DNA from: a virus
Length of the DNA stretch: 64,000 bases
IMG/VR virus record: IMGVR_UViG_3300020473_000023
Coordinates: 42,285 to 106,284 of that record
Direction: 5' to 3' (one strand)
The notes below the pieces were generated by a model. It saw only the letters and a program-made list of their open reading frames with translations. It did not search any database and was not told the DNA's origin. Positions 8,084 through 47,970 of this stretch are shown here, piece after piece (the first letter of the stretch is position 1; each line of letters starts with the position of its first letter). A program made the translations under genes and the position numbers.

Positions 8084-8253
8084 TTCTTTCTCCCATACTT
8101 AATGGTATTTTGCCATCTCTCCCTATAGAGCTTATTATACCTTCTCTGGGGTGTTTCCTCAATTTTTTCAAGATCTTCCTTTGGCATTTGCTTAGCAGCA
8201 TTTTCTCTCTTAACGATATCCTTGATAAACTTATCAAACTTAAACTTGCTCAT
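8080..8253 (-). CDS. Small basic protein (57 aa)
   Basis: The ATG at 8253 is chosen because TGGAGG precedes it at 8 bases; the ATG at 8274 would place that site inside the gene. The product is very basic and helical (MSKFKFDKFIKDIVKRENAAK...), with the FDKFIKDIVKRE segment resembling the recurring tag. It ends in RKK and overlaps the acidic protein gene by 4 bases. A small basic partner of the highly acidic neighbour is an attractive idea, but it rests only on charge and coupling. Confidence 0.6.
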   Translation of the reverse strand: MSKFKFDKFIKDIVKRENAAKQMPKEDLEKIEETPQRRYNKLYRERWQNTIKYGRKK

Positions 8254-8285
8254 TTTTTCTGCCCTCCAAGACATTATTAACTATT

Positions 8286-8639
8286 TCAATCAAGACAAAT
8301 AGTCAACTCAACATTGTGATCATATGAAGATAAATTTACCTTAACGCCTGTGTTTTCTAAATTAATTTTCTCAAAGCTTAGCAAATTTAAGTCACCATGC
8401 TTAACGTACAGTGATCCTTTAAGATTGCCTCTCACAAGAAGCTTAACAAGCTCTGTTGTTGAATTAAATGAAATTTTAACTTTTTTTTCTGCTCTTGCAA
8501 ATTCATTAATTTCAAATGAAAATGCTCTGTTGTCAATAAAGATCTGACCAATGAACAAAGTGCTAGCGTCAGTTGCATCTCCAGATAAACATCTTGGATC
8601 AATCTTTCCTACAAGAGAGTCGCTCATCATAACAGTCAT
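8286..8639 (-). CDS. Hypothetical phage protein (117 aa), beta-rich
   Basis: A predicted beta-sandwich-like protein with alternating strands (TLFIGQIFIDNRAFSF, KVKISFNST, GSLYVKHG, VELTICLD). No enzyme motif is seen. The start overlaps the stop of the pterin-dehydratase-like gene by 4 bases (ATGA), so the two are co-translated. Function unknown. Confidence 0.6.
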   Translation of the reverse strand: MTVMMSDSLVGKIDPRCLSGDATDASTLFIGQIFIDNRAFSFEINEFARAEKKVKISFNSTTELVKLLVRGNLKGSLYVKHGDLNLLSFEKINLENTGVKVNLSSYDHNVELTICLD

Positions 8640-9064
8640 AGCTGATCCTCACCTTGCTGGTCGGAAATATAAAAGTCTTGAATATCTCTGTATAAATTGT
8701 CACAAAAGCCAGCCAGCTCTTTATCCAGCTCTGTAACCTCATTAACATTATGTGTATAAGTTTCAATCTTAACATCGCTACCTTCGATAATAATTCTGGC
8801 ATGATGTCCCATTTCCTCTTGCTCAAAGATTAAGTGTGTCACAAAATCTTTTACCATTCTAGGATCGTTAAAGGAAAACACCCGAGTTAATCTTTCAACC
8901 TCGCCGTCGCTTACAACCATCCACTCAGACCTGCTAACAGCAACAGGAAGCTCTCCGATCACACCGGGAGAAAGATTTCCTAAAATTGAATCTATTCCTT
9001 TCATTTTCATATCACTCTCCTCCTGCAAGATTGACCTTCCAACAACTTCTAAGAGTGACTGCAT
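8636..9064 (-). CDS. Pterin-4a-carbinolamine dehydratase-fold protein with N-terminal tag
   Basis: Residues 45-125 match the PCD/DCoH fold: F63/F65, then E84-M-G-H87-H88, a strand, T104-H105 and a TELD (111-114) followed by a helix. These correspond to the family pattern E-x-x-x-H-H...T-H...(T)-x-x-D, in which the paired His residues act in dehydration of 4a-hydroxytetrahydropterin. The usual Pro after HH is Ala here. Before this domain sits a ~20-residue extension (SLLEVVGRSILQEE) like the tags on other proteins in the window. The role could be pterin recycling or a structural/DNA-binding use of the fold. The gene overlaps the beta-rich gene downstream and has GGGGAT as ribosome binding site. 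Confidence 0.7.
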   Translation of the reverse strand: MQSLLEVVGRSILQEESDMKMKGIDSILGNLSPGVIGELPVAVSRSEWMVVSDGEVERLTRVFSFNDPRMVKDFVTHLIFEQEEMGHHARIIIEGSDVKIETYTHNVNEVTELDKELAGFCDNLYRDIQDFYISDQQGEDQL

Positions 9065-19284: not shown

Positions 19285-22200
19285 TCACACATTAATCTTT
19301 CTCATCTTGTAGGAAGATGTACTACATCCCCAAGATTCAGTTGATGCAACTTCAGCAATCCATATTGTATATGGATCAGGAACTTCTTTAAACTTTGTCC
19401 AGACTCTAAGCCAGCAGCTTTCAGAATTGTTATCGCAAACTCTCATTCTATAGAATATCTTTCCATTCTTGGTCTTCTTCTCAATAATTTCCTGAATGCA
19501 GAACCAGACTACATCTTTTGTCTTTCCAGAGAGTGCAGTAATCGGCTTAAGTTCAGACTTCTTAATCTTTTCCATTATCTTGGGAGGAAAGACAAGCGTC
19601 TCGTCAGCTCCTGACATTAAGTCAACACTGAACCCGATCTTTAGGGTTCGAGACCAGTCAGCAGACCCGTAGTTGTCAACAATAAGCTTAGGAACAAATT
19701 CCTCAACAGTTGCCTGTGTCTTGAGGAGGCGCTTATGTGCAGTCTTTGTCATCCCATACCTACCTTTCTTCAATTGATCATAGTTTCCAACAATTATATC
19801 ATGAAGCTGTCTGTGATTTTGAATTTCTCCTTGGGATATTTCTGCTATACTTCCAAACGCCTCTACCTTACAAAGAGAATCAAAGGCTGTTTTATTTAGC
19901 TTGGAAGGCTTCCACTTCCCATCTTCTGTAAATAAAATATCATCAAGGGTGCTATATGGTCTATTTTCCATAATCTCAGTAACAGCAGATCCTCCAACAC
20001 CTTTGATAGCAGTAAGCGGTGGTACGAACCCTTGCCTTTCTTCACTATACACCCAGACGTCTGAAGAAGCATTGATATCGGGTTGAAGGATTTTATATCC
20101 TAGTGACTTGATCTCTGCTATGATCTTTGCAAACTTTGGAGATCCGTTCCACGTCTGAAGGCATGTAGCGAGCCATTCCTTTTCATGGTATGTGTGTAAC
20201 CATGCAGAATAATATGAATCAACAGCGTAGGCGACCGCATGTGACTTATTGAAGCCATAGGCAGAGAACGCCTCAATTGTCTCGTAGAGCTTGGTTGCTT
20301 TGTCTTCTGCCATGCCAGATAGTTTAACGGCACCTCCAATAAACTTCTCTCTAAGGTCAGCCCTCTCTTTTGCCTTTTTGTCATTCATGTCAAGAGACTT
20401 CTTGACAAGAGTCTTTCTCATCTTATCTGAAGCGCCTTTGTCGAATCCGCACAGCTTTTGTGCAATAAGCATGAACTGCTCCTGAAAGACGACGAATCCA
20501 CGGCTTTCGCTTAGGAGATCTTCAAGGACAGGGTGGTCGTATGTAATGCTTTCAATGTTTTCACCGGCCCGAACATATTTCCTATGAACGTTAGCTGCAA
20601 GGGGTCCTGGTCGATAGATTGCTGTAATGGTTGCAAGGTCTTCAATAGATCTAGGCTTGGCAGCCACACAGAAGTTTCTAGCACCTGTATTTGTGAACTG
20701 AAATACTTGGACGAATCTCCCATCGTGATAAACGTATTCCCAAACCTTTTGATCATCCATCTTGTGAAATCTACTATTTAGATTTGCATCAAAGAATTCA
20801 TTAATATCGTCAAACGTAGGATTTTCTACGCCTTGGTTTCTTAGGATGAGTCTGATAGAATCTTCCACCATTTTAAGAGTTGCTAGCCCAAGAAAGTCAA
20901 ATTTAAGAAATCCATTCTCTTCAAGGTGCCTCCAGTTCATTCCTTCTGACCACGGTGTTTGAAGCTCACCCCTAACTTTAATGACAGGCATACTGCTCTC
21001 AAGATCTGGGCAGACTAATACACCGCCAGCATGGCGACCGATCGATCTAGGCTCCATAAAGAGAGATTGAACGTGCTCTGCAATCTTAGGGTTATCGTTC
21101 ATAAATTCCCGATAGGGTTCGCTGTATTTCATGCAGTCCTCATGAGAAAGAACATATGTTGACTTTTCCTCATGATCACCCATGGCTCTTGGCATTACCT
21201 CTCTTTCCAGCGGACCTGTTAGAGCGTTTATCTTATCAAAAGGAATTCCATAAAACTTAGAAACGTCCTTAACAAGTGACCTTAACTTTAAAGTGTTAAA
21301 GTTGGAGACAGGTATGACAGAGTCTTCGCCAAAGAGCTCTCGAGAGACATCGATGAGTACATCTCTATCACCTACGTCAGAATCAATATCAGGCCAAGAA
21401 GCCTTGTGAATGCCAAGAAATCTCTCGAACAGAAGCCCATATTGAATAGGGTCAATGTGGGTAATCCCAAGGACATAGTTTACTAAGCTTCCGCCACCAG
21501 AACCTCGACCCGGACCGAGTAGAGTTCTATGCTGAGACTTCTCAAACACCTTAGTTAGAGTCAAGAAGTAATTTTCAAAGCCTAGCTGCTTAATAACAGA
21601 CATTTCCTCCCTAATCCGATTGACGTACTCGAGATTGTCATGAAGCCCTTCTTTGATCATTCCCTGCTTTACCTGTTCAACAAGCTGAGTAAACGCAGGC
21701 TTCTCAGGTGTTCCGAAGTTTGGAAGCTTTGCTGATCCGTCAAACCAGACTTCTTCGCAGAGGTCCCAGGCAATTCCATGAGATCTCTCAATTGCTTCTC
21801 GAACAGCTGTCTCACTTCCCTTATAGAAATCATATTTATCATAGCTCTTTCCAAATTCATCCCACATCTGCTGTGCATTCTTAGGATAGAGCTCACACTT
21901 TAAATCCTCCTTCTGGGGAAGTTTAGGCATTTCATCGCCTCTTGCACCCATTCTTCCAAGCATCTTATACATCTCTCTTGCCTCCCACATGTCTGGATTG
22001 CAATAGTGAGAATCAGCTGTGGCAAGAAGTGGGACTCCTGTCTTTTCAGAAAGCTTGATCAAGCACCTATTGGCAAGGTTTTGTGCAACAAGATCATTAA
22101 ACTGTATTTCAAGAAAAAAGTTTTCTTCGCCTACGGCATCTACAAATCTGTCTGTCATATTCTCAAGCTTTCTCATGATCTGATTAAGGACAACAGGATC

Positions 22201-22869
22201 GTCTACAAGATCGGGTGTCAGCTCATCAAACCTCTTTCCTTCAAAGTGCTGAAAGATATGGCCCGAAGGACGCCCACCAACACACGCTGTGGACACAGCA
22301 AGCCCTTCAGAGTGTTCCTTAAGCATCTTGTAGTCAATACGGGGAAACCTATAGAACCCCTCCTTGTATGATCTCTTGACCAATCTAAAGAGGTTCTGCA
22401 ACCCTTTGTAATTCTTAGCGAGAACTACAAGATGGTACCGCTTTTTCCAGGAGGGATAGGTTCCCCTCTCTGCCTTGGATTCATCTTCGTTTTCAATAAC
22501 CAAGCCATCGTTCTCATCCCCCTCAGAAACCTCACTCTTTGACTTCTTCTGAAGTTCTTTCTCAAGCCTGACCTGCTCTCTATATTGATTATAGTCTGTT
22601 TGCCATTCGTCTAAGTCATCTACAAAGTAGCACTCACAGCCATAGATGTGTCGATATCCCACCCCTTTGTTCTTTAGCTTTTTAGCATAGTTGTGAGCAT
22701 GAGCAGCAGAGTTCATGTGCCCATGATTTGTTAATGCAAAAGCATCCATTCCATTTTCAAGAACAAAGTCAATATGCTCGTTAGGGTATCCAAGGCCATC
22801 ATATACAGAGCTTCCATCGTGAGCATGAAGACCTACAAATCTTTTAGGTATGGTAAAATTATTAAACAC
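19285..22869 (-). CDS. dnaE: DNA polymerase III alpha subunit (DnaE-type replicase)
   Basis: An N-terminal PHP domain (residues 12-290; LHAHDGSSVYDGL, TNHGH, TADSHY) is followed by the family C palm: GPGRGSGGGSLV (452-463) and P493-D-I-D-S-D498 with the catalytic acids, then LKFDFLGLATL holding the third. A helix-hairpin-helix (IKGVGGSAV) and a C-terminal OB-like region follow. At 1194 aa it is full length. A charged insertion sits in the PHP domain at about 100-140. The PHP His/Asp residues look intact, so it may proofread itself. Start is GTG with AGGAGG 9 bases upstream. Family C replicases are uncommon in phages; here it sits beside a T4-like helicase, recombinase and SSB set. Confidence 0.92.
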   Translation of the reverse strand: MFNNFTIPKRFVGLHAHDGSSVYDGLGYPNEHIDFVLENGMDAFALTNHGHMNSAAHAHNYAKKLKNKGVGYRHIYGCECYFVDDLDEWQTDYNQYREQVRLEKELQKKSKSEVSEGDENDGLVIENEDESKAERGTYPSWKKRYHLVVLAKNYKGLQNLFRLVKRSYKEGFYRFPRIDYKMLKEHSEGLAVSTACVGGRPSGHIFQHFEGKRFDELTPDLVDDPVVLNQIMRKLENMTDRFVDAVGEENFFLEIQFNDLVAQNLANRCLIKLSEKTGVPLLATADSHYCNPDMWEAREMYKMLGRMGARGDEMPKLPQKEDLKCELYPKNAQQMWDEFGKSYDKYDFYKGSETAVREAIERSHGIAWDLCEEVWFDGSAKLPNFGTPEKPAFTQLVEQVKQGMIKEGLHDNLEYVNRIREEMSVIKQLGFENYFLTLTKVFEKSQHRTLLGPGRGSGGGSLVNYVLGITHIDPIQYGLLFERFLGIHKASWPDIDSDVGDRDVLIDVSRELFGEDSVIPVSNFNTLKLRSLVKDVSKFYGIPFDKINALTGPLEREVMPRAMGDHEEKSTYVLSHEDCMKYSEPYREFMNDNPKIAEHVQSLFMEPRSIGRHAGGVLVCPDLESSMPVIKVRGELQTPWSEGMNWRHLEENGFLKFDFLGLATLKMVEDSIRLILRNQGVENPTFDDINEFFDANLNSRFHKMDDQKVWEYVYHDGRFVQVFQFTNTGARNFCVAAKPRSIEDLATITAIYRPGPLAANVHRKYVRAGENIESITYDHPVLEDLLSESRGFVVFQEQFMLIAQKLCGFDKGASDKMRKTLVKKSLDMNDKKAKERADLREKFIGGAVKLSGMAEDKATKLYETIEAFSAYGFNKSHAVAYAVDSYYSAWLHTYHEKEWLATCLQTWNGSPKFAKIIAEIKSLGYKILQPDINASSDVWVYSEERQGFVPPLTAIKGVGGSAVTEIMENRPYSTLDDILFTEDGKWKPSKLNKTAFDSLCKVEAFGSIAEISQGEIQNHRQLHDIIVGNYDQLKKGRYGMTKTAHKRLLKTQATVEEFVPKLIVDNYGSADWSRTLKIGFSVDLMSGADETLVFPPKIMEKIKKSELKPITALSGKTKDVVWFCIQEIIEKKTKNGKIFYRMRVCDNNSESCWLRVWTKFKEVPDPYTIWIAEVASTESWGCSTSSYKMRKINV

Positions 22870-22931: not shown

Positions 22932-24002
22932 TCAATCTATAAATTTTCTTCTCAGCCTGAGGGACTCTAGCTTTTCAATAAGCTCTTTCTCTTCTGGGGA
23001 AGCGTCTGTCGGGATGCTTACAGTAACATGAACATTGTGAAATCCACGAATCTGAGCATTGATATCAACAGGAAGCCCTTCATTTGAAATTTGAATAATA
23101 TCACCTGGCTGAATTCCCGGTCTAATTTCTACAGAAAGAGTCTTATCTATTCCCCCTATATTAACCTTTGACCCAAGAACAGCTTCACTATAGGATATAG
23201 ATACGTGACTATGAATATCACTACCATCCCTATAGAGCTTCTGGTGATCTTTGACTACAATCTCTAAGAAAGCATCTCCGGCAATGTCCGCTGTGGCTTC
23301 TTTGTTTCCCATGCCCGAAAGCTTAAGAACATTTCCAGAATGGATTCCACTGGGTATCGAGACATTAATTTCCTTTTTCTTTCGTACAGACCCAGAACCG
23401 TGACAGCTAGAGCATGGGTTGGATATTGTAAATCCGTATCCTGAGCAGCTTCCACAAGAAGTTGCAAATGTTACAAACCCCCCGACACTTTGCTGAACCC
23501 TTCCTGTTCCGGCGCATGTCTTGCACCTAGACCTATCTGACTTATCTAAATAGCCATGCCCTGAACACGGTTCACATAGAACTATTTGATTGATATGAAT
23601 AGTCTTACTGCAACCTGTTAGGACTTCTTCAAGGTCTATTTCAATCGTATTCTTAGTGTCTGATCCCTTTCTCTTAACATCACGCTGTCTTCTTCCACCA
23701 AAAAAGTGATCAAATCCTGAGAACATATTTTCAAAATGTCCGAATATATCTCTTGGATCGAACTGAGAAGAGAAGCTAGAAGAGACACCCTCGTGTCCAA
23801 ATCTATCATAATTTACACGCTTTTCAGGATCAGAAAGCACTGAATAAGCCTCGGCTGCTTCTTTAAATTTTAGCTCAGCATCCGGATCATCTGGATTCTT
23901 ATCAGGATGATATTTCATAGCCTGCTTTCGATAAGCTTTCTTTATATCACCCTCAGAAGAGTCTTTTTTAACTCCTAGTATTTCATAATAGTCTCTTTTC
24001 AA
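22932..24002 (-). CDS. dnaJ: DnaJ (Hsp40) co-chaperone, full length
   Basis: The J-domain (1-70) contains the HPD motif at H32-P33-D34. A Gly/Phe-rich linker follows, then four CxxCxGxG zinc modules (starting at C143, C160, C183, C197), then the two C-terminal beta domains. All parts of a type I (class A) DnaJ are present in 356 aa, close to the bacterial length. It would stimulate host DnaK ATPase and deliver substrates to it. No DnaK or GrpE gene is seen in the window. It lies just downstream of the 107-bp region containing a small partner gene and just upstream of dnaE. Confidence 0.92.
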
Positions 24003-24256
24003 ATATCTTTCTCGTAATAGTTTCTAGTTACAATCATTTCAGATTTCTCACCGTCTACAGAGTATTTAATCTCCATTTCCCAAGAAGGCTCTTTGACATT
24101 GTTTAAGAATCTTTCCTGAATATAGAATAGCTCGTCTCTTCGCTTAACTTTTTCTACTTCTTCTTTTGCAGACTCCCAAGAAGAGAAAATTCCAACCAAG
24201 GAAGTTGAAATATTTCTACATCGGATAAGGGCATATACTTTATTCAATACTTCCAT
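23999..24256 (-). CDS. Small hypothetical protein (85 aa)
   Basis: The start [12 protein letters not shown] at 24256 is preferred to the one at 24322, since the upstream 22 residues lie inside the deoxyribosyltransferase gene and read like shadow sequence. The product looks like a compact alpha/beta domain: strand VYALIRC, helix [15 protein letters not shown], then strands EMEIKYSV and EMIVTRNYY. Its stop overlaps the dnaJ start by 4 bases. No motif recognised. Confidence 0.55.
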
Positions 24257-24680
24257 AGTAAGGCTCATGAAGAAGCATGCTGAGATCTGAGCATCGAGAA
24301 AGATAATCATCAAGCTCATCAAACGAGGTGCAGACCTTGGCCCCCGATTGTGCTAGCATTAGATTAAATGTAGCTCCTTCTGGAAGCCCTGCACAAAAAT
24401 AAACTATAGGTGTATCAGATTGAAAGGCAACGCCTGCTTCAAAAATACTTCCCATATCTTTATCGCGAGTATTGCAAATTACAAAGTCATTTCCAAGAAT
24501 GTGTTCAACATTTCCCTCAAACGTCTCTCTTTGTGTCTTAAGATCAGCTGTTGGCGGACATACAAAGAAGTCTTTTGGTGAAAAATAGTCAAATCCATTT
24601 TTTGTAAGAAGTGATTTAATAGTTTCAACCTCCTCAAAGGCAGTCGGTGTAAACCAAGAGCTTGCAATATACGCTTTCAT
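24240..24680 (-). CDS. Nucleoside 2-deoxyribosyltransferase-like protein
   Basis: The N-terminal strand YIASSWF, the D-M-G-S-I-F-E-A-G-V-A motif holding the likely nucleophile Glu, and the following PIVYFCAG strand match the nucleoside 2-deoxyribosyltransferase family. These enzymes move deoxyribose between bases, or hydrolyse nucleoside monophosphates (the DNPH1/RCL type). Length (146 aa) is normal. In a gene block full of dUMP/dTMP enzymes it could clean up unusual nucleotides or scavenge deoxyribose. TAGGAG precedes the ATG. Confidence 0.75.
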   Translation of the reverse strand: MKAYIASSWFTPTAFEEVETIKSLLTKNGFDYFSPKDFFVCPPTADLKTQRETFEGNVEHILGNDFVICNTRDKDMGSIFEAGVAFQSDTPIVYFCAGLPEGATFNLMLAQSGAKVCTSFDELDDYLSRCSDLSMLLHEPYYGSIE

Positions 24681-24690
24681 TAACTTTCTC

Positions 24691-25680
24691 CTATTTGTTA
24701 TTGTTCATATAGTTTGCGTATTCATCTTTCATTTCTTGAATTTCTTCAAGAGTTGAAGTCCAAATTTTCTCAAAAATAGTTGGACCGTCATTAGGAACTG
24801 TTCCCTTAATATCTTCTCGACGAGATTGATAAATTGAATCATCAGGGTGATATTCAAACAGATCGTTCTTTGGCTCCGGCCAGTATAGATTTGTTCCCCT
24901 TGAGGTGAAGCCACCTTGTCCATCGGAAACTCTAAAAGTCTTTACATAGTGCATATCAGGCTTGTCAAAGTTAATTCTAGAAGAGGCTTCTGGGAGAACC
25001 TTGATTAGCTCCTTAGCCATATAGGCTGCCAGCAAATTGTCTGCAGCTGGTTGAATTTGCATATCTTGCCTCTGGGCGATGAAGCCTAAAAGATCTTTGA
25101 GATTAAGTCTCATCAGATAAAAAGATGTCATGCACTTTGGAAGAATCATTCTAGCATCCATCATAGAGACATCTTTTGAATCTGTCATGTCTGCATAGAG
25201 CTGCTTTGCCTCCCTTGTTAGTGTAATCCACCTATCTAAAAATTCAGGAGAGTTTTCAACAGCCTCAGGAATAACAGCAGGATCATCACGAAGATCTCGA
25301 TCGCCGGTGCACTGGGCGGCAAAAGAACCGGCTCGGTGTCGAATAATATGCGTGACTTCCTGGAATGACAAGCCGCTTAATTTAAAAGTAAACCCAAAAC
25401 ATTCCATTGGTGTTGGTAGTGCCCTAAAGCAGAGGACGTCTTCCAGATTAGAGGACATTTCTTGCGGTGTGGCTGTTGTAGGATTTGTGTCATCAGGGTT
25501 GTCTGCCCAGGTGGCTTTTACGTACTGCCAGGCAACGTTTAATGCCTGATCCCGAGTTGGATAGTCAACAAGCTCAACCTTTAAGGCTGACAAGTTGTTA
25601 AAAAATTCTGTAGTAGGCTCCTGTCCGAACTTTAGGTCCATTGGGAGACTGATTGGCTTAAGATTATGATTGACTGGCAT
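24691..25680 (-). CDS. thyX: Flavin-dependent thymidylate synthase
   Basis: R114-H115-R116 followed by AGSFAAQ-C124-T-G-D-R aligns with the ThyX signature RHRx7S...R. The family's Ser (x7S) is replaced by Cys and the usual Asn-Glu pair by Ala-Gln, so this is an unusual variant. Other ThyX features are ILPKCMTSFYLMRLNLKDLLGFIAQR, with the folate/dUMP-contacting Arg. At 329 aa it is longer than the typical ~220-250 aa. It would turn dUMP into dTMP using FADH2 and methylene-tetrahydrofolate. AAGGAAG precedes the ATG. It sits between the deoxyribosyltransferase and the dUTPase/HAD fusion genes. Confidence 0.85.
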   Translation of the reverse strand: MPVNHNLKPISLPMDLKFGQEPTTEFFNNLSALKVELVDYPTRDQALNVAWQYVKATWADNPDDTNPTTATPQEMSSNLEDVLCFRALPTPMECFGFTFKLSGLSFQEVTHIIRHRAGSFAAQCTGDRDLRDDPAVIPEAVENSPEFLDRWITLTREAKQLYADMTDSKDVSMMDARMILPKCMTSFYLMRLNLKDLLGFIAQRQDMQIQPAADNLLAAYMAKELIKVLPEASSRINFDKPDMHYVKTFRVSDGQGGFTSRGTNLYWPEPKNDLFEYHPDDSIYQSRREDIKGTVPNDGPTIFEKIWTSTLEEIQEMKDEYANYMNNNK

Positions 25681-25736: not shown

Positions 25737-26690
25737 TCACATAAAATTATTCTTCATTAAAAGAGCGTCGATGAGAACTCTTAGCTGGCTCGGGCCATAA
25801 TACATCTTGACGCCTTCAACACTTTCAAGCTCTGAATTGTATGAAGTAACGGGAGAAAGAGTTGAAACTCCGTGCTTGGCATATTCAGCGCTATGTTTGG
25901 CAGAATCATCAATAGCACATACAATTTTTCCAGAGTCAAAATATTCAGACTTAGTTAGCCATCTATACTTCTCAGCGCTAAAATCAACTCTGTGAAATTT
26001 TAACCCTGATTTGCTTAGCCACCTGTATGTATCATACTTACATTGAAGAACATCTCCTGGCCGAGCTGTTAAGAGTTGAATCCAGCATCCGCTATCATAA
26101 AAGTGATTTATAGTCTGTACGACACCTGTATCTACTGTGAGAGTTCTAAGCTTTCTTTCTGCCAAAAAGTCATCAAATACTTCTTCAGGATTTAGTCCGG
26201 CATCTCTAACTTCTGATGTAGTATAATACTCAGTAGACTCTCTGTCGACTAAAACGCCTCTCTCGGATTCAAGCCAGTCAATAAAGTTAGATCTAAAATG
26301 TGCAATCACATCATCAATATCAAATACAAGGACAGGCTGGCCCTCCCAGGCCTGAGATTCGATATGATATCTCATATGAAGAAACATGTCCTTATCTTCA
26401 AATGCGTCAGATAGAGATCCTGGGTCTATGTTCCAAAGATTTAAAATTGCAAGAAGATATCTAAAAACATCAACTGATTCGTATAGAATCTTTGAAGGAT
26501 CAGCAACGCTCCTAAGTCGTCTATGATCTTTAAAGTTAACTGCGCTTATTAGTTCAGAAACTTCGGCATGAAGAGCCAGGGCAAAAGATTTTGTCATCTC
26601 TTCTCTTTCACTATCTGACATATTTTCAGGTTTAAAAAAAAGATCAGAAAATTTATTTTGACGATTAAAGAAATAGTCTAAGTCTCTCAT
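25737..26690 (-). CDS. Fusion: all-alpha dUTPase-like domain plus HAD nucleotidase domain
   Basis: Residues 1-115 are all helical with E43-x-x-E46 and an E71-S-V-D74 pair, the metal-binding pattern of dimeric dUTPase/MazG-type NTP pyrophosphatases. From residue 120 a HAD phosphatase begins: VLVFD124-I-D126-D motif I, a Thr in LLTARPG (motif II), a Lys region and CAIDDSAKHS (motif IV). The HAD part is most like 5'(3')-deoxyribonucleotidases. Together one polypeptide could convert a (d)NTP to NMP and then to nucleoside. A separate stand-alone dUTPase gene follows upstream at 26742-27113. AGGAGG precedes the ATG. Confidence 0.75.
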   Translation of the reverse strand: MRDLDYFFNRQNKFSDLFFKPENMSDSEREEMTKSFALALHAEVSELISAVNFKDHRRLRSVADPSKILYESVDVFRYLLAILNLWNIDPGSLSDAFEDKDMFLHMRYHIESQAWEGQPVLVFDIDDVIAHFRSNFIDWLESERGVLVDRESTEYYTTSEVRDAGLNPEEVFDDFLAERKLRTLTVDTGVVQTINHFYDSGCWIQLLTARPGDVLQCKYDTYRWLSKSGLKFHRVDFSAEKYRWLTKSEYFDSGKIVCAIDDSAKHSAEYAKHGVSTLSPVTSYNSELESVEGVKMYYGPSQLRVLIDALLMKNNFM

Positions 26691-26741: not shown

Positions 26742-27113
26742 CTAATATCCTTCTGTCAACCTTTTGTGAATTACTTCGTCCTTTCTAGTATACTCTCTAA
26801 ACAAATCATCTGAGCTAAATCCTGTCATAATGAGAAGAGAGAAAAAGTAATTAAAGGCATCAACCATCTCTTCAAGAAACTTCTCTCTATCGAACCCAGA
26901 GATCTCAGTGACTCTATGCGGTTTCCAGTTTTTAAGATGCTGAAGGGCTTCGAACATTTCTTCGACACCCCTTAGAGCGACATCCCTGCAAATCTGCTGA
27001 TCCTCTTTTTTACTTAGGTCTAGAGGGGCGGTTGGAGTTGATCCGGGAATTTTTTCACCCAAAGATCTCATAAACAGCTCCCTCAGTTCAAACATAGAAT
27101 CAAGCTTGTCCAT
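26742..27113 (-). CDS. All-alpha dUTPase/NTP pyrophosphatase
   Basis: E51-E52-x-x-E55 on one helix, KNWK (61-64), and E81-E82-x-x-D85 with Y89 on the next helix reproduce the dimeric dUTPase (MazG-like) core that hydrolyses dUTP to dUMP and PPi. At 123 aa it is a minimal version. It may keep uracil out of phage DNA and supply dUMP to ThyX. It belongs to the leftward block with the fusion protein and a small unknown gene. The ribosome binding site is weak. Confidence 0.7.
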   Translation of the reverse strand: MDKLDSMFELRELFMRSLGEKIPGSTPTAPLDLSKKEDQQICRDVALRGVEEMFEALQHLKNWKPHRVTEISGFDREKFLEEMVDAFNYFFSLLIMTGFSSDDLFREYTRKDEVIHKRLTEGY

Positions 27114-27121
27114 CTAAAATA

Positions 27122-27361
27122 TCAACTCTCAACTAGAAGAGAGTCAACTGCGAGTGCTTCCGCGTCATCAAGCATTTTCTGAACTTGACCGTCTGATATT
27201 TCCCTATATTCACTTGTTAAAACAAGCTCCTCGTCATTCTCTTCAGAGGTGGTAACCTTAATCATTCTAAGGTGATCAACTACGTCTGTTCCGCTTAGGA
27301 TGGCCATTTGCAAAAGTTTTGCTACGTGGCTGATGACTTCATTTGAAAGTGTATAATTCAT
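27122..27361 (-). CDS. Small hypothetical protein (79 aa)
   Basis: Begins MNYTLSNEVISHVAKLLQM, a helix, followed by a strand (HLRMIKVTTSEENDEELVLT) and an acidic helical C-terminus. CAGGAG lies before the ATG. It is 2 bases from the Nei gene upstream and 8 bases from the dUTPase gene downstream. No motif recognised; its position suggests co-expression with nucleotide and repair functions. Confidence 0.6.
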   Translation of the reverse strand: MNYTLSNEVISHVAKLLQMAILSGTDVVDHLRMIKVTTSEENDEELVLTSEYREISDGQVQKMLDDAEALAVDSLLVES

Positions 27362-27363
27362 AT

Positions 27364-28170
27364 TTACTCCTGTACTTCTGGAACCCAGTGGGTGGTTCTT
27401 CCATCTTTTGTTTTTTCTTTTATGACAGTGTTTCCGTGCGGATCTGTCTTTTGATTATAAACCAAAAACCTTTGACTGTATTCTCCTATCTCTCCTTCAA
27501 ATCCAGAATATGTACTAATTGTAGCACCTCCTGTATCATAGGACGCCCTTATTGTCTTCTTGATGCTTTCATTTAAAAGAATGATCTCTTGATCTGAGAG
27601 AGATTTGCATGCCCTGTGGGGTGAGATTTTTGAAATGTAAAGAGATTCTGCTTTAAGATAGTTTCCAACCCCGGATATCACAGACTGATCCATTACAGCT
27701 TGGGCAATTGTCTTTTTATTGCACGCTCTAATTCTTCTTAAAAAGTCATCATTCTTAACATCGTCATTTAGCATGTCAGGCCCTAGAGAGTTTAACTTAT
27801 TAATTAAAAGATCTTTTCCCCTTACAATCTTTAAAGTTCCAAAGTTTCTAATATCGTTAAAAAAAATAGACTCTCCGCCTAGACAAATCTTGACCCTTGA
27901 GTGCTTGTTGCGGGTTCCCGACCACGTCCCAGACATTCCCAGTGTATTCCAAATAGCCCATTCATTTTCAAGAATTATAAAGATAAACTTTCCATGACAC
28001 CCAGCACCTGCAATTTTCAATGGAAGTTCATGTAAAATACTATCAAAACCGTCGGGCGGACCGTGATTCTTATATCTACCAGATAAAATCTCAATGCCAT
28101 CTAGAGATTTCCCCCCAACTCTTTCAGCAAGAGATTCAGCAATTCTTCTAACTTCTGGGCCTTCTGGAAT
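27364..28170 (-). CDS. nei: Fpg/Nei-family DNA glycosylase with an ATT start codon
   Basis: The frame can be extended 50 codons beyond the first ATG (28020) to an ATT at 28168-28170. The added sequence encodes (M)PEGPEVRRIAESLAERV, which is the catalytic N-terminus of Fpg/Nei enzymes (P2 nucleophile, E3). AGGAGG lies 7 bases before the ATT and no ATG, GTG or TTG is in frame, so ATT is the likely initiator. Other family motifs: the Lys in CHGKF, LGMSG, DIRNFG, the helix-two-turn-helix VISGVGNYLKAES and DGRTTHWVPEVQ. The zinc-finger Cys residues are all missing (VYNQ...PEVQ), so it is a zincless-finger type with the catalytic Arg kept. It would excise oxidised bases. Total 268 aa, normal size. 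Confidence 0.85.
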   Translation of the reverse strand: MPEGPEVRRIAESLAERVGGKSLDGIEILSGRYKNHGPPDGFDSILHELPLKIAGAGCHGKFIFIILENEWAIWNTLGMSGTWSGTRNKHSRVKICLGGESIFFNDIRNFGTLKIVRGKDLLINKLNSLGPDMLNDDVKNDDFLRRIRACNKKTIAQAVMDQSVISGVGNYLKAESLYISKISPHRACKSLSDQEIILLNESIKKTIRASYDTGGATISTYSGFEGEIGEYSQRFLVYNQKTDPHGNTVIKEKTKDGRTTHWVPEVQE

Positions 28171-28197: not shown

Positions 28198-28218
28198 TTA
28201 TATCAGGAGCTTGTTCAA
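28190..28218 (-). promoter_or_regulatory. Divergent sigma70-type promoter for the nei operon
   Basis: On the minus strand TTGAAC (28213-28218), a 17-base spacer and TATACT (28190-28195). Its -10 overlaps the -10 of the plus-strand promoter and its -35 covers the ATG of the plus-strand gene, so the two promoters cannot be occupied at once. Confidence 0.55.
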
Positions 28219-28877
28219 TGAAAAGAATCATAGTTTCGGACACACACATAGGGACTAGATTCTATAAGTCTGAAGAGCTTTTAAAGTTTCTTAAAACAGA
28301 GGAGTTTGATCAGCTCATACTTGCAGGCGATATCATAGACTTTATTAAGATACCGACATTTACTGAGAGGTGTATGGAGATCTTGGAGGCAATTGGAAAA
28401 AACAAGGAAATCATATACGTCGTAGGAAATCATGATGAAAGCCTGGTTGGATTAATTGGTAGGCAATTTTTTAATATTAAATTTGTTAAGAAGTATGAGT
28501 TTCAAGAGGGAAAGAGAAAGTTTAGAATAGAGCACGGAGATGACTATGACAAGGGTGTAATTCACAATAGAGTCTTTATTAAGCTCCTATCAGTTATTCA
28601 AAATATGCTAGAATTTGCATTTAACTTTGACTTCACAACGTGGTGGACGTCGATTCAAATTAAAAGGCATAAGCTGAGGAGTGTTATTCATATCCTTAGA
28701 CATCACCCAAATATTGATGTATTTATAATGGGACATACACACATACCTGAAGCAGTTATCTGGATAGACGAAGATCAAAATATTAAAACATATATCAATG
28801 CAGGTGACTGGGTTACACACCAGACATATGTTACAGTAGTTAACGGCGTGTCTAGACTAAGAAAGTTTGAATCTTAG
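28218..28877 (+). CDS. Calcineurin-like metallophosphoesterase (LpxH/YfcE-like)
   Basis: The only plus-strand gene in the window. All metal-binding motifs are present: SDTHIG (DxH), AGDIIDF (GDxxD), GNHDES (GNHD), EHGD and GHTHIP. The order and size (219 aa) fit UDP-2,3-diacylglucosamine hydrolase-like and related phosphodiesterases. AGGAG precedes the ATG, with its own promoter upstream. Its 3' end overlaps the convergent MBD4-like gene by 26 bases. Opposite orientation and private promoter suggest a later acquisition or separate timing. Substrate unknown: lipid A precursor, nucleic acid end or nucleotide. Confidence 0.85.
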   Translation: MKRIIVSDTHIGTRFYKSEELLKFLKTEEFDQLILAGDIIDFIKIPTFTERCMEILEAIGKNKEIIYVVGNHDESLVGLIGRQFFNIKFVKKYEFQEGKRKFRIEHGDDYDKGVIHNRVFIKLLSVIQNMLEFAFNFDFTTWWTSIQIKRHKLRSVIHILRHHPNIDVFIMGHTHIPEAVIWIDEDQNIKTYINAGDWVTHQTYVTVVNGVSRLRKFES

Positions 28878-29304
28878 ATTTTTCTTCATTCTCTCTAAGC
28901 CAGCCGTGATAGTCGTTAAGGGCGTGGTCTCTTGGCTCAACATTTCTCCAGTCACCTAAGCAAAATATCCTGTAAGCATCAGAAGCATACTTTCCTATTC
29001 CATACAGAACTTCTGGACTATTTCTCCAGTCTTTTGTTAGGTAATCATTAGACATTCTAATAAGTGTCTTAGATCGTCTCTGAGACAATCCGAGCGGTTG
29101 AATCATATTCTGCAATTTTTTTTGATTTGCACATGCTGCCTTTTCAGGGGTAGGGTAAAGATCAAAAAACTTCCACATATAAGGTTCCGATTCAACCCTT
29201 TTTGTTAGATTGCAGAATATACAGGCTACAAATATCTTCCAGGGGTCTTTCCAGAGACTCTCTTGAATTAAGTTATACGGTGACTTCGGGGGCATCCATG
29301 TCAT
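28852..29304 (-). CDS. MBD4-like HhH-GPD DNA glycosylase
   Basis: The start ATG at 29304 has GGAG 6 bases upstream. The whole 150-aa product reads like the glycosylase domain of the eukaryotic mismatch enzyme MBD4: SPYNLIQESLWKDPWKIFVA, then PYMWKFFDLYPTPE, QPLGLSQRRSKTLI and DYLTKDW. These are followed by the helix-hairpin-helix LYGIGKYASDA (100-110) and EPRD126HALNDYH, where D126 matches the catalytic Asp. There is no Lys at the bifunctional position and no iron-sulfur Cys cluster. MBD4 removes T or U opposite G. In this phage it could remove deaminated bases or act on modified DNA. It overlaps the small membrane protein gene upstream by 32 bases. Confidence 0.85.
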   Translation of the reverse strand: MTWMPPKSPYNLIQESLWKDPWKIFVACIFCNLTKRVESEPYMWKFFDLYPTPEKAACANQKKLQNMIQPLGLSQRRSKTLIRMSNDYLTKDWRNSPEVLYGIGKYASDAYRIFCLGDWRNVEPRDHALNDYHGWLRENEEKSKIQTFLV

Positions 29305-29482
29305 TGTCATCTCCAGTATTATCATACTGAAGCAGATCTCTGTTGTTCAAGCTCTTCTTTTGAACTATCCTGTCTGAAATAGCACATGCTAGTTCGAGAA
29401 ATGTGTTTCCAATAAAATTTATGACTAGAGATAGAATCACCATAAAGACAATTACGATAATTATCGACGGAATCTGTGTCAT
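29273..29482 (-). CDS. Small single-span membrane protein (69 aa)
   Basis: A long hydrophobic segment fills the N-terminus (IPSIIIVIVFMVILSLVINF), followed by a short cytoplasmic-type tail that is polar and acidic (DNTGDDNDMDAPEV). AGAGGAAG before the ATG supports this frame over the alternative frame that overlaps it. It is coupled to the MBD4-like gene. Function unknown. Confidence 0.6.
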   Translation of the reverse strand: MTQIPSIIIVIVFMVILSLVINFIGNTFLELACAISDRIVQKKSLNNRDLLQYDNTGDDNDMDAPEVTV

Positions 29483-43108: not shown

Positions 43109-45571
43109 TTAAGAGCACTTTGACCAGCCGCAAGACATGCATGTCACACAGCCTTCTTGATATCTTAGTGAATCCACTGCATCACAGCTTTCACAAATAT
43201 TTTTTCCTGGAGAGGTTCCATCCTGGATGTAAGTTTTTAGGACTCTTGCAATCACTCTGGAGAATGAAAACATATCCATTTCTCTATCTTTTTGAAGCTG
43301 TTCAACAACATAATTGATAGGTGCTCCGTGTCTCAATGCAAGAGAGATAGTCCTTGTAAATCCAGCGTGATTTGGATTATCAAACACATCAACAATATCT
43401 TTTATAAGAATTTCGTCTTCAGGGACACCAATTCTAAGATCATATCTAGAATTCTTCGTCTTATAGTGGTGCTTGATAATCGTGCCTTTTCTATACTTCT
43501 TAGGGATCTCTATATACTTCTGGAGACCTCCCATGACCTCATAGGGCCTTCCACCCATTAGGCCAACAAGAATAGTCCAGGCCTCACCCTTGATGGTTGC
43601 ATGGTGTATAGAGCACTCTAGCTCGAAGGGCCTGAAGGGTGCCTCGTGCGTCTTAAAGGCCTGGTCCTCTTCTTTTTCTTCTCCGATCAAGACGCCAGTT
43701 CTACATCCGTCTCTGTATACAGTTAAGCCCTTACAGCCTAACTCCCAACCTGCCTCATAAATCTTTTTTACCTCATCGACAGTCACATCACTGGGAAGGT
43801 TAATGGTAGAGGATATCCCGTGATCAATCCATCTTTGTGCCGCAGCCTGAAGCTTGACTCTTGATTTCCAGTTAATTTCACTTGCTGTTGACATGTGATA
43901 CGGAGAGTCTTCAATTTCGGAAAGACCAGTTTTATCCATCCAGTCTTTAAATCCATGATGATACACTTCATACTCCTTCCAGGAGTCTCCGAGATCATCT
44001 ATAAAGTCTGCCTCTACACCTTCAGTTGTCTGACTTATCTTTCTTCTTCTTGTGTATTTTAACATAAATGCTGGTTCAATTCCACTTGAGGTCTGTGTTA
44101 AAGTTGAGACAGATCCAGCAGGTGCAGTTGTTAAAATTGAAATATTTCTTCTTCCTGTGCTCTTGCTCATTTTAAGTGTCTGATTGCATGAATCCCAGAT
44201 TCTCTCTAGAAATGGGTGCCCGACCTCTCTATCATGATTGTGAATGGGGAAGGCCCCTCTTTCAGATGCCATAATACATGAAGACTTGTACGCAGAGACA
44301 GCAAGAGTTTTATATATTTCTTCAACTATGGTAATAGACTTTTCACTTCCGTATCTTATTCCAAGAGAGGCAAGTGTGTCTCCTACAGCAGTAACTCCCA
44401 GCCCCGTTCTTCTTCCATTTAGTGCCTTTTTTCTAATTGTCTCCCATAGATCCTTTTCAATCTTCTTGACTTCTTTGGCTTCCGGATCCCTCTTAATTTT
44501 TCTTAAAATCTTGTCTATTTGTTCAACTTCAAGATCAATCATGTCGTCCATTAGCCTTTGTGCCTTGACGGCACAGTCACCAAATCTTTCAAAATCAAAC
44601 GAAGCTGACTCAGTAAATGGATCATCAACAAAAGAAATAAGATTAACAAGCATCAGTCGACACGAATCATAGGGAGCAAGAGGTAGCTCAGAACAGGGAT
44701 TGGTAGAGGTTGTTCCATACCCCTCTTCTCCATAGACATCAGCAGGAGAATTTCTAATAACTGAATCCCAAAAAATTAAACCCGGCTCAGCAGAATCATG
44801 AGCAGCATCAATTATTTCATCCCAGATCTCTCTTGCATCAACCCAGCTTTCAACAATGTGATCTGCATCTTTCTCAACTGGAAACCTGAGGTGTAGATTT
44901 TCATTATTCTTAACAGCCGTTAAAAATTCATCAGAAAGCCTAATTGAAATATTTGCGCCTGTTACCTTCTTTCTGTCTCTTTTAATGTTGATATAGTCAC
45001 TAATCTGAGGATGATGGACAGAGATAGTAAGCATTAGGGCACCTCTTCTGCCTCCTTGTGCCACCTCTCTTGTAGAGTTGGAAAATCTCTCCATAAAGAC
45101 TTCTATTCCATCTGTAGTTCTAGCTGCATTTCCAGTCGGCAAACCTTTCGGCCTTAGGGTAGAAATATCAAATCCAACTCCTCCACGACGCTTGGCAATC
45201 TGAACAAGCTCTTGATCCGACTTTAGTATTCCTCCATAAGAATCTCTAGGCGATTCAATGACAAAGCAATTAGAAATAGACTGTATCTGATTATTGTTTC
45301 CAATTCCCGCCATGGGCGACCCTTGTGGGACTACGTATTTAAACTCTCTAAAGAGCTCGTAGATCTCATCTTCTGAAAGTGGGTTGGGATACTTTGATTC
45401 AATTCTAGAAAACTCTTTAGCAAGCCTCCTGTGCATATCATCAGGGGTTCTCTCTTGGTATCCTCCGGCACGATCACAAAGAGCATACTTGGTCGCAAAG
45501 ACACTGGCTGCCAAATCATCACCATTGAAGTATTCAGTCGAAGAACTGATCACATCTTCAAGTTTATGCAT
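43109..45571 (-). CDS. nrdJ: Ribonucleotide reductase, class II (adenosylcobalamin-dependent)
   Basis: The SNCFVIES, GGVGFDISTLRP, LMLTISVHHP and NPCSELPL segments are those of the class II ribonucleoside-diphosphate/triphosphate reductase; the N-x-C-S-E holds the radical Cys. The C-terminal ~30 residues form a Cys-rich zinc ribbon (CESCDAV, CVTCMSCGW), typical of the NrdJ group. At 820 aa it is a complete single-chain enzyme that needs vitamin B12, so the host must make or import cobalamin. It supplies dNTPs to the DnaE and helps the thymidylate genes. AGGAG-like TTGGAG precedes the ATG. Confidence 0.92.
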   Translation of the reverse strand: MHKLEDVISSSTEYFNGDDLAASVFATKYALCDRAGGYQERTPDDMHRRLAKEFSRIESKYPNPLSEDEIYELFREFKYVVPQGSPMAGIGNNNQIQSISNCFVIESPRDSYGGILKSDQELVQIAKRRGGVGFDISTLRPKGLPTGNAARTTDGIEVFMERFSNSTREVAQGGRRGALMLTISVHHPQISDYINIKRDRKKVTGANISIRLSDEFLTAVKNNENLHLRFPVEKDADHIVESWVDAREIWDEIIDAAHDSAEPGLIFWDSVIRNSPADVYGEEGYGTTSTNPCSELPLAPYDSCRLMLVNLISFVDDPFTESASFDFERFGDCAVKAQRLMDDMIDLEVEQIDKILRKIKRDPEAKEVKKIEKDLWETIRKKALNGRRTGLGVTAVGDTLASLGIRYGSEKSITIVEEIYKTLAVSAYKSSCIMASERGAFPIHNHDREVGHPFLERIWDSCNQTLKMSKSTGRRNISILTTAPAGSVSTLTQTSSGIEPAFMLKYTRRRKISQTTEGVEADFIDDLGDSWKEYEVYHHGFKDWMDKTGLSEIEDSPYHMSTASEINWKSRVKLQAAAQRWIDHGISSTINLPSDVTVDEVKKIYEAGWELGCKGLTVYRDGCRTGVLIGEEKEEDQAFKTHEAPFRPFELECSIHHATIKGEAWTILVGLMGGRPYEVMGGLQKYIEIPKKYRKGTIIKHHYKTKNSRYDLRIGVPEDEILIKDIVDVFDNPNHAGFTRTISLALRHGAPINYVVEQLQKDREMDMFSFSRVIARVLKTYIQDGTSPGKNICESCDAVDSLRYQEGCVTCMSCGWSKCS

Positions 45572-45608: not shown

Positions 45609-47018
45609 CTAACTATTACTGTTAATCTCCTTCCACTTATTCTTCAGTATGGTTTTCATGTCATTATTATCTGACCTTAAAGCCTCGCTCAGTGTCATTT
45701 CATCGTCATTGTCGACAACAAGGATTTTTGACCTAGCAGTGTCCATCCTCATTGGAAATAAAACACCGTCTCTTCCTGCTCTATTTTTTGCAATAAATAT
45801 TCTACCAAGGCCGCTGGACTTTTCTGTCGGCTTTCTAGAAAGTGAAACCACAACATCGGCAACCATCGCTTTTCCATATGCTTCTGACATATTTTCAAGA
45901 CCAACAATGTCTGAATTAGCAGAATCTCTATTGGCTTGAGAAGCGGTCCAGACAGGAATATTCATATCCATTGCTAGATTTCTTAATTCTTCATAGATCA
46001 GCTTGAGTTCATGCCTAAGCGAATCATACTTCCTAGAAGATCTCATGATATCAGCGTAATCAATTACAATTAAGCTTGGAACGAATCCCTTTAAGGATAG
46101 CTTTTCCATGTGGTTCCTAATCATCATTACTGTAGCTGATCCTGTCGGATATTCCTTAATAATCAGTCTTCCAAGATCCATATCATTATACTTCTTAAGT
46201 ACTTCATCCTTTCTATCAATAACTTCATTGCTTGGAATGTCACAAAAATTAGAATCGTATCTTAAGCCGACAGCAGTTTCTGAAAGTTCGAAAGTGTAGT
46301 GAACGACATTCTTTCCACGCCTTAAAGCTTCAGCACCCACACTAACGAGGAAGTGACTCTTTCCGACACCCGTATTGGCTGTCACAACTCCAATCTCACC
46401 TCGACCAAGTCCGCCGTTTAATATGTCTTTCTTATCAAGCTGAGGGATTCCAGTAGGGCATGCACATCTACTAATGTGAACAAACCGAGCTTCAGCGTCT
46501 TCCATAAAGTCATGGCCAATTGAAGCGGGCATTCCTACAGATAGTGCGTGTCTCATAAGATCCATCACAGACTCTAGCTTACCACCTGAAATTCTTTCAA
46601 CTGCCTCTTCCAGGGCTTCTTTCATTGCTTGCTGCTTACAGAAATCAAGCGTCTTTTCTTTGACAAACTTAAGATCCCCCACATCAGGGTTCATCCTAAT
46701 TCTATGCAAGAATTCAACTATTTGATCTCTAAGAATTATGTCCTTTCCCTCTCTTAGATCGTCACGAACTATCGTGATCAAGAGAGGGAGTGTGGGAAAG
46801 TCCTTGTACTTAAGATAGTAAGAAAAGTACTTGTCTGAGAGATATCTCAAATACTTTAAATCAAAGTACGTCGGAGTCATAACCTCCGACATCTGTGTAG
46901 ACCAATTCTTGTCAGTGATTAGGCACTGAAAGATTTTCTCCTGAAAGGACTTGCCATATTGCTTAAAGTGTGCAGTCCCTTCAGAAGCATACTCATTTAT
47001 CATTACTACGTTTTCCAA
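45609..47018 (-). CDS. Replicative DNA helicase (DnaB/gp41-like)
   Basis: An N-terminal helical domain (1-165) precedes a RecA-like motor: GEIGVVTANTGVGKSHF (Walker A), then a Walker B strand SLIVIDYADI, EELRNLAMDMNIPVWTASQAN (motif H3-type) and the arginine-finger region near RIFIAKNRAGRDG. This is a DnaB-family hexameric helicase that unwinds the fork. 469 aa is normal. The start is uncertain: TTG at 47018 with GAGGA 4 bases upstream, or ATG at 47003. It overlaps the exonuclease gene. No primase domain is present. Confidence 0.88.
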   Translation of the reverse strand: MENVVMINEYASEGTAHFKQYGKSFQEKIFQCLITDKNWSTQMSEVMTPTYFDLKYLRYLSDKYFSYYLKYKDFPTLPLLITIVRDDLREGKDIILRDQIVEFLHRIRMNPDVGDLKFVKEKTLDFCKQQAMKEALEEAVERISGGKLESVMDLMRHALSVGMPASIGHDFMEDAEARFVHISRCACPTGIPQLDKKDILNGGLGRGEIGVVTANTGVGKSHFLVSVGAEALRRGKNVVHYTFELSETAVGLRYDSNFCDIPSNEVIDRKDEVLKKYNDMDLGRLIIKEYPTGSATVMMIRNHMEKLSLKGFVPSLIVIDYADIMRSSRKYDSLRHELKLIYEELRNLAMDMNIPVWTASQANRDSANSDIVGLENMSEAYGKAMVADVVVSLSRKPTEKSSGLGRIFIAKNRAGRDGVLFPMRMDTARSKILVVDNDDEMTLSEALRSDNNDMKTILKNKWKEINSNS

Positions 47019-47970
47019 TGTTCCTCATTGATAGAAAAAGGTGATCGATGTCAAGATTTTGAATTCCATTCTTTATCATCATCCTGATTAGTGATATTTT
47101 ATTTGGTGCGGGGCTAAAAGTATCAATTGAACTTTCAATCTTTTTAATTTGTTCGGGAGATAGGTTTGAAGTATCTAAGTAAGTCAATTTCCAGTTGGTT
47201 CTAATTAGGTTCTCACTATCAGCTATTTCTTTAAAAATCTTAGGTGATCTCTTCTCTTGGGCTCTTTCTTTAGCCTCTGATATTATGTCTAATATTGTGC
47301 AGTCGTCCTCTGATGATAGCACTGGAAATCTTTTTGATATGGTCTTAAACCCAGCCCCCTTTACACCCTTTATATTGTCAGAGGGATCGCCGCATATGGA
47401 TTTTGCTAAGCAAAAATTATTTGGGCTTATTCCAAACTTTCCTACAACCTCTCTCTTGTTGACAAATTTTTTCCATGTAGGAGAGTAAATGACTGTCTTG
47501 TCATCTAGAAGCTGGTAGTAATCTCTATCAGAAGAGATAATCACCTTTTTATCATTTCTAAATTTGTACCTAGAAAGATATCCTATAACATCATCTGCCT
47601 CACAGCTGTCAACATAAACTTGAATTACAGGTAGCTTTTTTAATGAACTTATCAAGAAAGAAACTTGATCATTTCTATTCTCAATTGTGTTGGGAATATC
47701 TTCATCTTCATAAAATCGATTTAGCTTTTGAGGCCTTCTTCTCATCTTATAGGCAGGAAGAACATCCCTTCTCTTTTTAGACCCGCCACCTTCCCATACT
47801 ACGACAACAGACGTGGGAGACATTTCAAGACATATCTTTTTTAGGCCGTTTAAAAATCCAACTATGCCCCCTACGTGGTAGCCTTGATCGCTCATTGCTG
47901 GATGAGCAACATAGTGACGCATAAAAAGATTAAATGCATCAACTAAGACTACAGGTCTTATCTTGTTCAA
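46993..47970 (-). CDS. 5'-3' exonuclease / flap nuclease (PolI N-terminal or T4 RNase H type)
   Basis: The opening VVLVDAFNLFMRHYV, the arch region with KKRRDVLPAYKMRRR, EADDVIGYL and SSDRDYYQLLD, followed by ICGDPSDNIKGVKGAGFKT (helix-hairpin-helix-type DNA binding), identify a FEN/5'-3' exonuclease. The acidic metal ligands of the active site are present. It would remove RNA primers and flaps. 325 aa is normal. TTG is the start. It is coupled to the helicase gene downstream and the recombinase upstream, as in T4-like replication clusters. Confidence 0.88.
   Translation of the reverse strand: MNKIRPVVLVDAFNLFMRHYVAHPAMSDQGYHVGGIVGFLNGLKKICLEMSPTSVVVVWEGGGSKKRRDVLPAYKMRRRPQKLNRFYEDEDIPNTIENRNDQVSFLISSLKKLPVIQVYVDSCEADDVIGYLSRYKFRNDKKVIISSDRDYYQLLDDKTVIYSPTWKKFVNKREVVGKFGISPNNFCLAKSICGDPSDNIKGVKGAGFKTISKRFPVLSSEDDCTILDIISEAKERAQEKRSPKIFKEIADSENLIRTNWKLTYLDTSNLSPEQIKKIESSIDTFSPAPNKISLIRMMIKNGIQNLDIDHLFLSMRNIGKRSNDK

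Follow-up and report, generated by a model that had tools for sequence, protein, structure and literature searches.

Known mismatch glycosylases and related phage genes

Eukaryotic MBD4 guards the genome against deamination of methylated cytosine. Deaminated 5-methylcytosine and 5-hydroxymethylcytosine are thymine and 5-hydroxymethyluracil (5hmU), respectively, neither of which is removed by ordinary UNG-type uracil glycosylases. Mig.Mth (PDB 1kea), a further protein with the HhH-GPD domain, is an Fe-S T/G mismatch glycosylase for G:T arising from 5-methylcytosine deamination and is linked genetically to a cytosine-modifying enzyme. Genes of the Mig type are cellular or plasmid-borne and lie beside a DNA methyltransferase. 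On a Haloplanus plasmid we observed a Mig/MutY-like HhH-GPD gene (L102, 2908-3552) with Pycsar genes on one side and the gene of a DNA cytosine methyltransferase on the other.

Among phages, Stenotrophomonas phage AXL1 encodes an ENDO3c protein, gp65, which among its relatives is reported to occur otherwise only in Xp12, a phage with 5-methylcytosine in place of every cytosine (PMC9206674). AXL1 DNA was resistant to most restriction enzymes with G/C in their sites, and related Pamexvirus phages without a gp65-type gene also showed some restriction resistance (PMC9206674). The authors drew no link from gp65 to MBD4. The Xp12 gene was not among our phage tblastn matches.

The phage protein described here belongs to the same family as gp65 in our tree (100/98) and matches it by tblastn (5e-15). 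The gp65 gene adjoins genes for an NTP pyrophosphohydrolase and for an enzyme with the thymidylate synthase fold, functions akin to those surrounding our gene. The two proteins differ in that they share ~38% identity, with gp65 on a deep branch, and the partner enzyme is ThyA-type in AXL1 and ThyX-type here. BLASTP between our NTP-pyrophosphatase/HAD protein and AXL1 gp64 was not significant, and we therefore claim a similar set of functions rather than a shared operon.

An MBD4-type glycosylase domain encoded by a marine phage

The window, i.e. the whole stretch of 64,000 nucleotides analysed, belongs to a 106,284-base IMG/VR virus record in which phage replication genes are present. An earlier note made from the sequence had described one of its products as an MBD4-like mismatch glycosylase with a helix-hairpin-helix (HhH), a catalytic Asp and no iron-sulfur cluster. 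The gene and its neighbours are:

28852-29304, minus strand: MBD4-type HhH glycosylase, 150 aa (sequence, fold, residues, tree)
28218-28877, plus strand: calcineurin-like metallophosphoesterase, convergent with the glycosylase gene with a 26-bp 3'-end overlap; 18 loci of the clade
27364-28170, minus strand: Fpg/Nei-type glycosylase/AP lyase with H2TH and C-terminal domain; catalytic N-terminal Pro-Glu intact (I/M-PEGPEV)
27122-27361, minus strand: small conserved cassette protein, 79 aa; 28 loci
26742-27113, minus strand: all-alpha NTP pyrophosphatase, dUTPase_2 (PF08761; Pfam 4.8e-06); 37 loci
25737-26690, minus strand: second NTP-pyrophosphatase-like protein; N-terminal part PF08761 below cut-off (0.0049), C-terminal half HAD-like (DxDD motif)
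24691-25680, minus strand: divergent ThyX, 329 aa; ThyX homology, signature altered
24240-24680, minus strand: nucleoside 2-deoxyribosyltransferase-family protein (PF05014, Pfam); 18 cassette loci

The longest reading of the glycosylase frame is 28852-29325 (157 aa). We prefer the start at 29304, as given in the earlier note: it is preceded by GGAG at a distance of 6 nt, it coincides with the start in close relatives, and the extra N-terminal residues of the longer form are poorly modelled. A phmmer search against PDB matched the protein to the human/mouse MBD4 glycosylase domain at 1.6e-48 over 144 residues, with ~50% identity to human MBD4 across the whole domain, whereas the best non-MBD4 glycosylase in the same search, MutY, reached 0.015. 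Profile searching gave 2.4e-64 for MBD4 versus 7.7e-13 for the Mig T/G glycosylase, a far weaker similarity; this profile was built from phage members and human MBD4, and since it includes the human sequence the phmmer search is the fairer test. Pfam HhH-GPD matched weakly (3.2e-07), Pfam and NCBIfam together offered no more than HhH-GPD or a weak Nth/MutY assignment, and PHROG families gave no match.

The AlphaFold model, calculated from an alignment of 41 viral sequences, had a pLDDT of 93.8 and superimposed on human MBD4 on a G:T mismatch with a TM of 0.97 and 0.7 A (Foldseek). TM was 0.97 to 6vjw and 4e9g, both with T-containing DNA, and 0.93-0.97 (target-normalised) to 16 MBD4 structures, which identifies the fold as that of MBD4. 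Against MBD4 complexes with T:G, thymine or 5hmU DNA the rmsd was 0.7-1.3 A (Foldseek), and the MutY, Nth and Mig structures among the matches listed had a TM of at most 0.57. By inspection, the C-terminus lacks the cysteine motif of the Fe-S cluster (CX6CX2CX5C), as the earlier note had stated. A methyl-CpG-binding domain is also absent, the 150 aa comprising the glycosylase domain alone. Judged by its sequence, the phage protein is a homologue of the MBD4 glycosylase domain and not of the two-domain full-length MBD4, and its membership in the glycosylase-domain family is firm.

Purifying selection acts on the gene (dN/dS ~0.11-0.23 where dS is measurable), which together with the 1e-48 match rules out a chance open reading frame or pseudogene. 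Cellular contamination is ruled out by the virus record and by relatives in hundreds of viral contigs.

Active-site and wedge residues

Residues were compared across 71 distinct viral proteins in human MBD4 numbering. Asp560, Tyr540, Asn467, Gly507, Arg512, Gly538 and Tyr566 were invariant (71/71), Gln449 was retained in 63/71, and the Lys of the HhH motif GxGKY was found in 60/71, including the window protein. The latter also has the equivalents of Tyr540, Gln449 and Leu508, and its counterpart of the catalytic Asp560 lies at position 126, or 133 in the longer 157-aa form (codon 28929-28927). The alignment thus located both the HhH and the catalytic Asp named beforehand.

The position of Leu508 is occupied by L, M or F across the viral proteins, and that of Arg468 by Leu (65/71, including the window protein) or Gln (6/71), with Arg in no viral member. 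Lys562 is replaced by Ala in 43/71, again including the window protein. In human MBD4, Arg468 and Leu508 fill the space that the base vacates on flipping (PMC5406665). This pair is a trait of the characterised mammalian MBD4 rather than an established family criterion, and the phages keep its Leu508 side (as L, M or F). As read from the alignment, the catalytic chemistry is conserved and the DNA wedge is not; given the changes of Arg468 to Leu and Lys562 to Ala, substrate preference may have shifted.

Compared with eukaryotic MBD4 (human/mouse; 6vjw, 4e9e, 1ngn), the window protein shares about half of the residues, the fold, the Asp, the pocket Tyr, the HhH, Leu508 and the lack of Fe-S. The differences are the missing MBD, Leu/Gln for Arg468 and mostly Ala for Lys562 among the viral proteins, and the phage setting within a cassette for nucleotide metabolism and base-excision repair. 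The family represents a compact, predicted G:T/G:U glycosylase that is free of Fe-S and MBD and has an altered wedge residue.

The gene cassette around the glycosylase

Downstream of the glycosylase follow Fpg/Nei, the small protein, the two NTP-pyrophosphatase-like proteins, the divergent ThyX and the deoxyribosyltransferase-like protein, an order that recurs across contigs. Within the window's clade, Fpg/Nei was found at 16/36 and NTP pyrophosphatase at 25/36 loci with at least 3 kb downstream, and the ThyX variant at 20/32 loci with at least 4.8 kb downstream. The Fpg/Nei family occurred at 29/85 loci and neighboured the glycosylase in several separate clades, more distant members among them (L048, L050-L059, L068, L074), and a UvdE-type UV endonuclease (Pfam 4.5e-62) was encoded near the MBD4-type gene in two other clades (L063-L067, L035-L039). 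Both Fpg/Nei and UvdE enzymes are able to cut abasic sites, and such neighbours fit a monofunctional glycosylase in need of a partner. The location of the glycosylase beside genes for making and policing DNA building blocks suggests cytosine repair in these phages and perhaps also chemical modification of this base. The metallophosphoesterase may stand outside the repair function.

The Fpg/Nei gene apparently begins at an ATT codon (28170), shortly 3' of a strong AGGAGG, and read from there it is complete. A TTG open reading frame at 28020 is a truncated call of the same gene; ORF callers would miss the rare ATT start and with it the catalytic Pro. At one related locus (L003, 5443-5781) the MBD4-type gene and Fpg/Nei are separated by a phage gene for ClpS, a Clp protease adaptor (Pfam 1.8e-23). 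Elsewhere in the window we found NrdJ, an adenosylcobalamin-dependent ribonucleotide reductase (43109-45571) that in relatives often lies upstream of the MBD4-type gene, as well as a DnaE-type polymerase (19285-22869), a separate 5'-3' exonuclease (46993-47970), a short PolA-like polymerase of 403 aa (53184-54395) and DnaJ (22932-24002). A GroEL-like chaperone is encoded on the same record beyond the window (L105, 1118-2728).

Divergent ThyX and co-occurring thymidylate synthases

The divergent ThyX is a ThyX homologue that keeps RHR, while the remainder of the signature is RHRAGSFAAQCTGDR where RHRX7S is expected. It reads RHRAGSFAAQC, with Cys for Ser and without a following GRY. Its structure model (pLDDT 63.8) was too poor for reading the pocket; among its fold matches was PolB, a UMP/dUMP methylase and thus a ThyX-fold enzyme with another substrate.

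ThyX was found in 23/31 MBD4-bearing records versus 2/28 random viral contigs, and the MBD4-type gene in 19/40 variant-ThyX contigs (at least 40 kb) versus 1/28 random contigs (at least 35 kb), the random control being small and biome-unmatched and the co-occurrence confounded by shared ancestry. The glycosylase is often missing from variant-ThyX contigs. ThyX or ThyA family enzymes were present in 28/31 MBD4-bearing records, the other three being G817, G819 and G824, the last of which ends near the gene. Two enzymes of these types occurred in eight records: canonical ThyX with the ~330-aa variant in G802, G806, G809, G811 and G813, ThyX with ThyA in G812 and S-TIM54, and two ThyA in G815. As canonical ThyX stands beside the variant in several genomes, the latter probably makes another C5-alkylated nucleotide, and we propose that it is probably a C5-alkylating enzyme of a pyrimidine nucleotide. 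On one 9.5-kb stretch (L029) a canonical and a divergent ThyX (3232-3924 and 7852-8811) flank the MBD4-type gene.

A C5 DNA methyltransferase was absent from 29/30 MBD4-bearing records, in contrast to the setting of Mig-type genes. A polymer-level 5-methylcytosine methyltransferase was therefore rejected as partner, and any modification would arise at the nucleotide level. The divergent ThyX (46% identical) was also seen in an isolate, Geobacillus phage GR1 (L094, 9001-9969), where genes for a glycosyltransferase and a deoxyribosyltransferase lie close by; the DNA of this phage may be glycosylated.

Proposed function and alternatives

Homology makes it very likely that the protein acts as a G:T/G:U/G:5hmU glycosylase. 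An enzyme of the MBD4 type would flip a T, U or 5hmU that faces G in a mispair out of the helix, and the conserved Asp would cut the N-glycosidic bond. The resulting abasic site would be cut by the neighbouring Fpg/Nei, or by UvdE in other lineages, and the gap refilled by phage or host enzymes. These phages may carry C5-modified pyrimidines, most likely, if less certainly, 5-methyl- or 5-hydroxymethylcytosine, which the divergent ThyX (or ThyA) enzyme would produce on the nucleotide. Since such cytosines deaminate to bases that UNG misses, they would give a phage reason to keep an MBD4-type enzyme. We hold it to be rather probable that a monofunctional glycosylase starts phage base-excision repair on account of C5-modified pyrimidines, and of the reasons for its presence the link to modified DNA has the best support, with moderate confidence on our part. 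The gene directs attention to phages in which cytosine may carry a C5 modification introduced on the nucleotide.

The main rival is plain uracil repair, in which cytosine is ordinary and the enzyme substitutes for a uracil glycosylase; a phage without UNG would use it to repair G:U arising from cytosine deamination and perhaps also G:T mispairs made by the polymerase. Leu in place of the Arg wedge resembles UNG-type enzymes, and three records were without any ThyA/ThyX. No UDG superfamily gene was found in 31/31 MBD4-bearing records, which is weak support because, to our knowledge, most phages are without UNG. Human MBD4 is active on G:U as well as G:T (PMC5406665). However, uracil repair explains neither why thymidylate-synthase-like enzymes, duplicated or divergent, are enriched in these records nor the Xp12 report, and we consider it possible but unlikely.

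The target might instead be host or rival DNA, from which deaminated or modified pyrimidines would be excised for takeover or counter-defence. Phages carry many takeover genes, and the nucleotide-scavenging setting (ribonucleotide reductase, NTP pyrophosphatase, deoxyribosyltransferase) would suit host DNA breakdown too. A base-specific mismatch glycosylase is, however, ill-suited to degradation and the pairing with Fpg/Nei or UvdE is a repair pattern, which makes this explanation quite improbable.

Phylogeny and distribution

The tree set mammalian MBD4 and all viral members apart from Nth, MutY and Mig-like proteins with support of 100/98. Membership in a different HhH-GPD group (Nth, MutY, Mig or AlkA type) with a mere likeness to MBD4, as the generic Pfam/NCBIfam assignments would allow, is ruled out to a negligible residue of doubt by the PDB scores, the fold, this split and the missing Fe-S motif, MBD4 being far closer in sequence, fold and tree, contrary to the refuting outcome named in the earlier note.

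Mammalian MBD4 grouped with the window's clade, which comprises 36 rows, with support of 96/88 that rose to 99/95 or 99/97 once long branches or the outgroup were removed, the eukaryotes in these trees being two mammals. Forcing all viral rows into one clade was not rejected for the full set (AU p 0.34) and was borderline rejected for a reduced set picked after the tree was seen (AU p 0.032). A large virus-borne branch that is nearly missing in sampled bacteria is a candidate source or sister of animal MBD4. The combined reading, that large marine phages replace cytosine by a C5-modified cytosine through a re-purposed flavin-dependent ThyX and guard it by an MBD4-type G:T/G:5hmU glycosylase with Fpg/Nei, and that the eukaryotic MBD4 domain descends from this viral family, appears doubtful to us.

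Related loci numbered 289 in IMG/VR at the pattern level applied. By tblastn we found eight phage records representing five distinct phages (AXL_1, DoCa6, YB23, Donnerlittchen and S-TIM54). A few phage relatives figure in public records under the labels 'ENDO3c', 'endonuclease III' or 'hypothetical', which indicates that the gene had been seen before with its MBD4 nature unrecognised. A literature search, with subscription journals largely outside its reach, found no report of a phage MBD4. These public records qualify the earlier note, which knew of no described phage versions.

A scan of prokaryote genome contigs gave eight loci, the majority of which lie in phage-like neighbourhoods within MAG contigs. 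In profile searches of two phyla (397 + 399 genomes) the centre genome was the sole match, with none in the ~795 others. Both results argue against a cellular origin in the sampled prokaryotes; the MBD4-type family is virus-borne. One likely cellular copy was seen in a Candidatus Actinomarina MAG (L092, 3986-4375), where the MBD4-type gene has apparently chromosomal neighbours.
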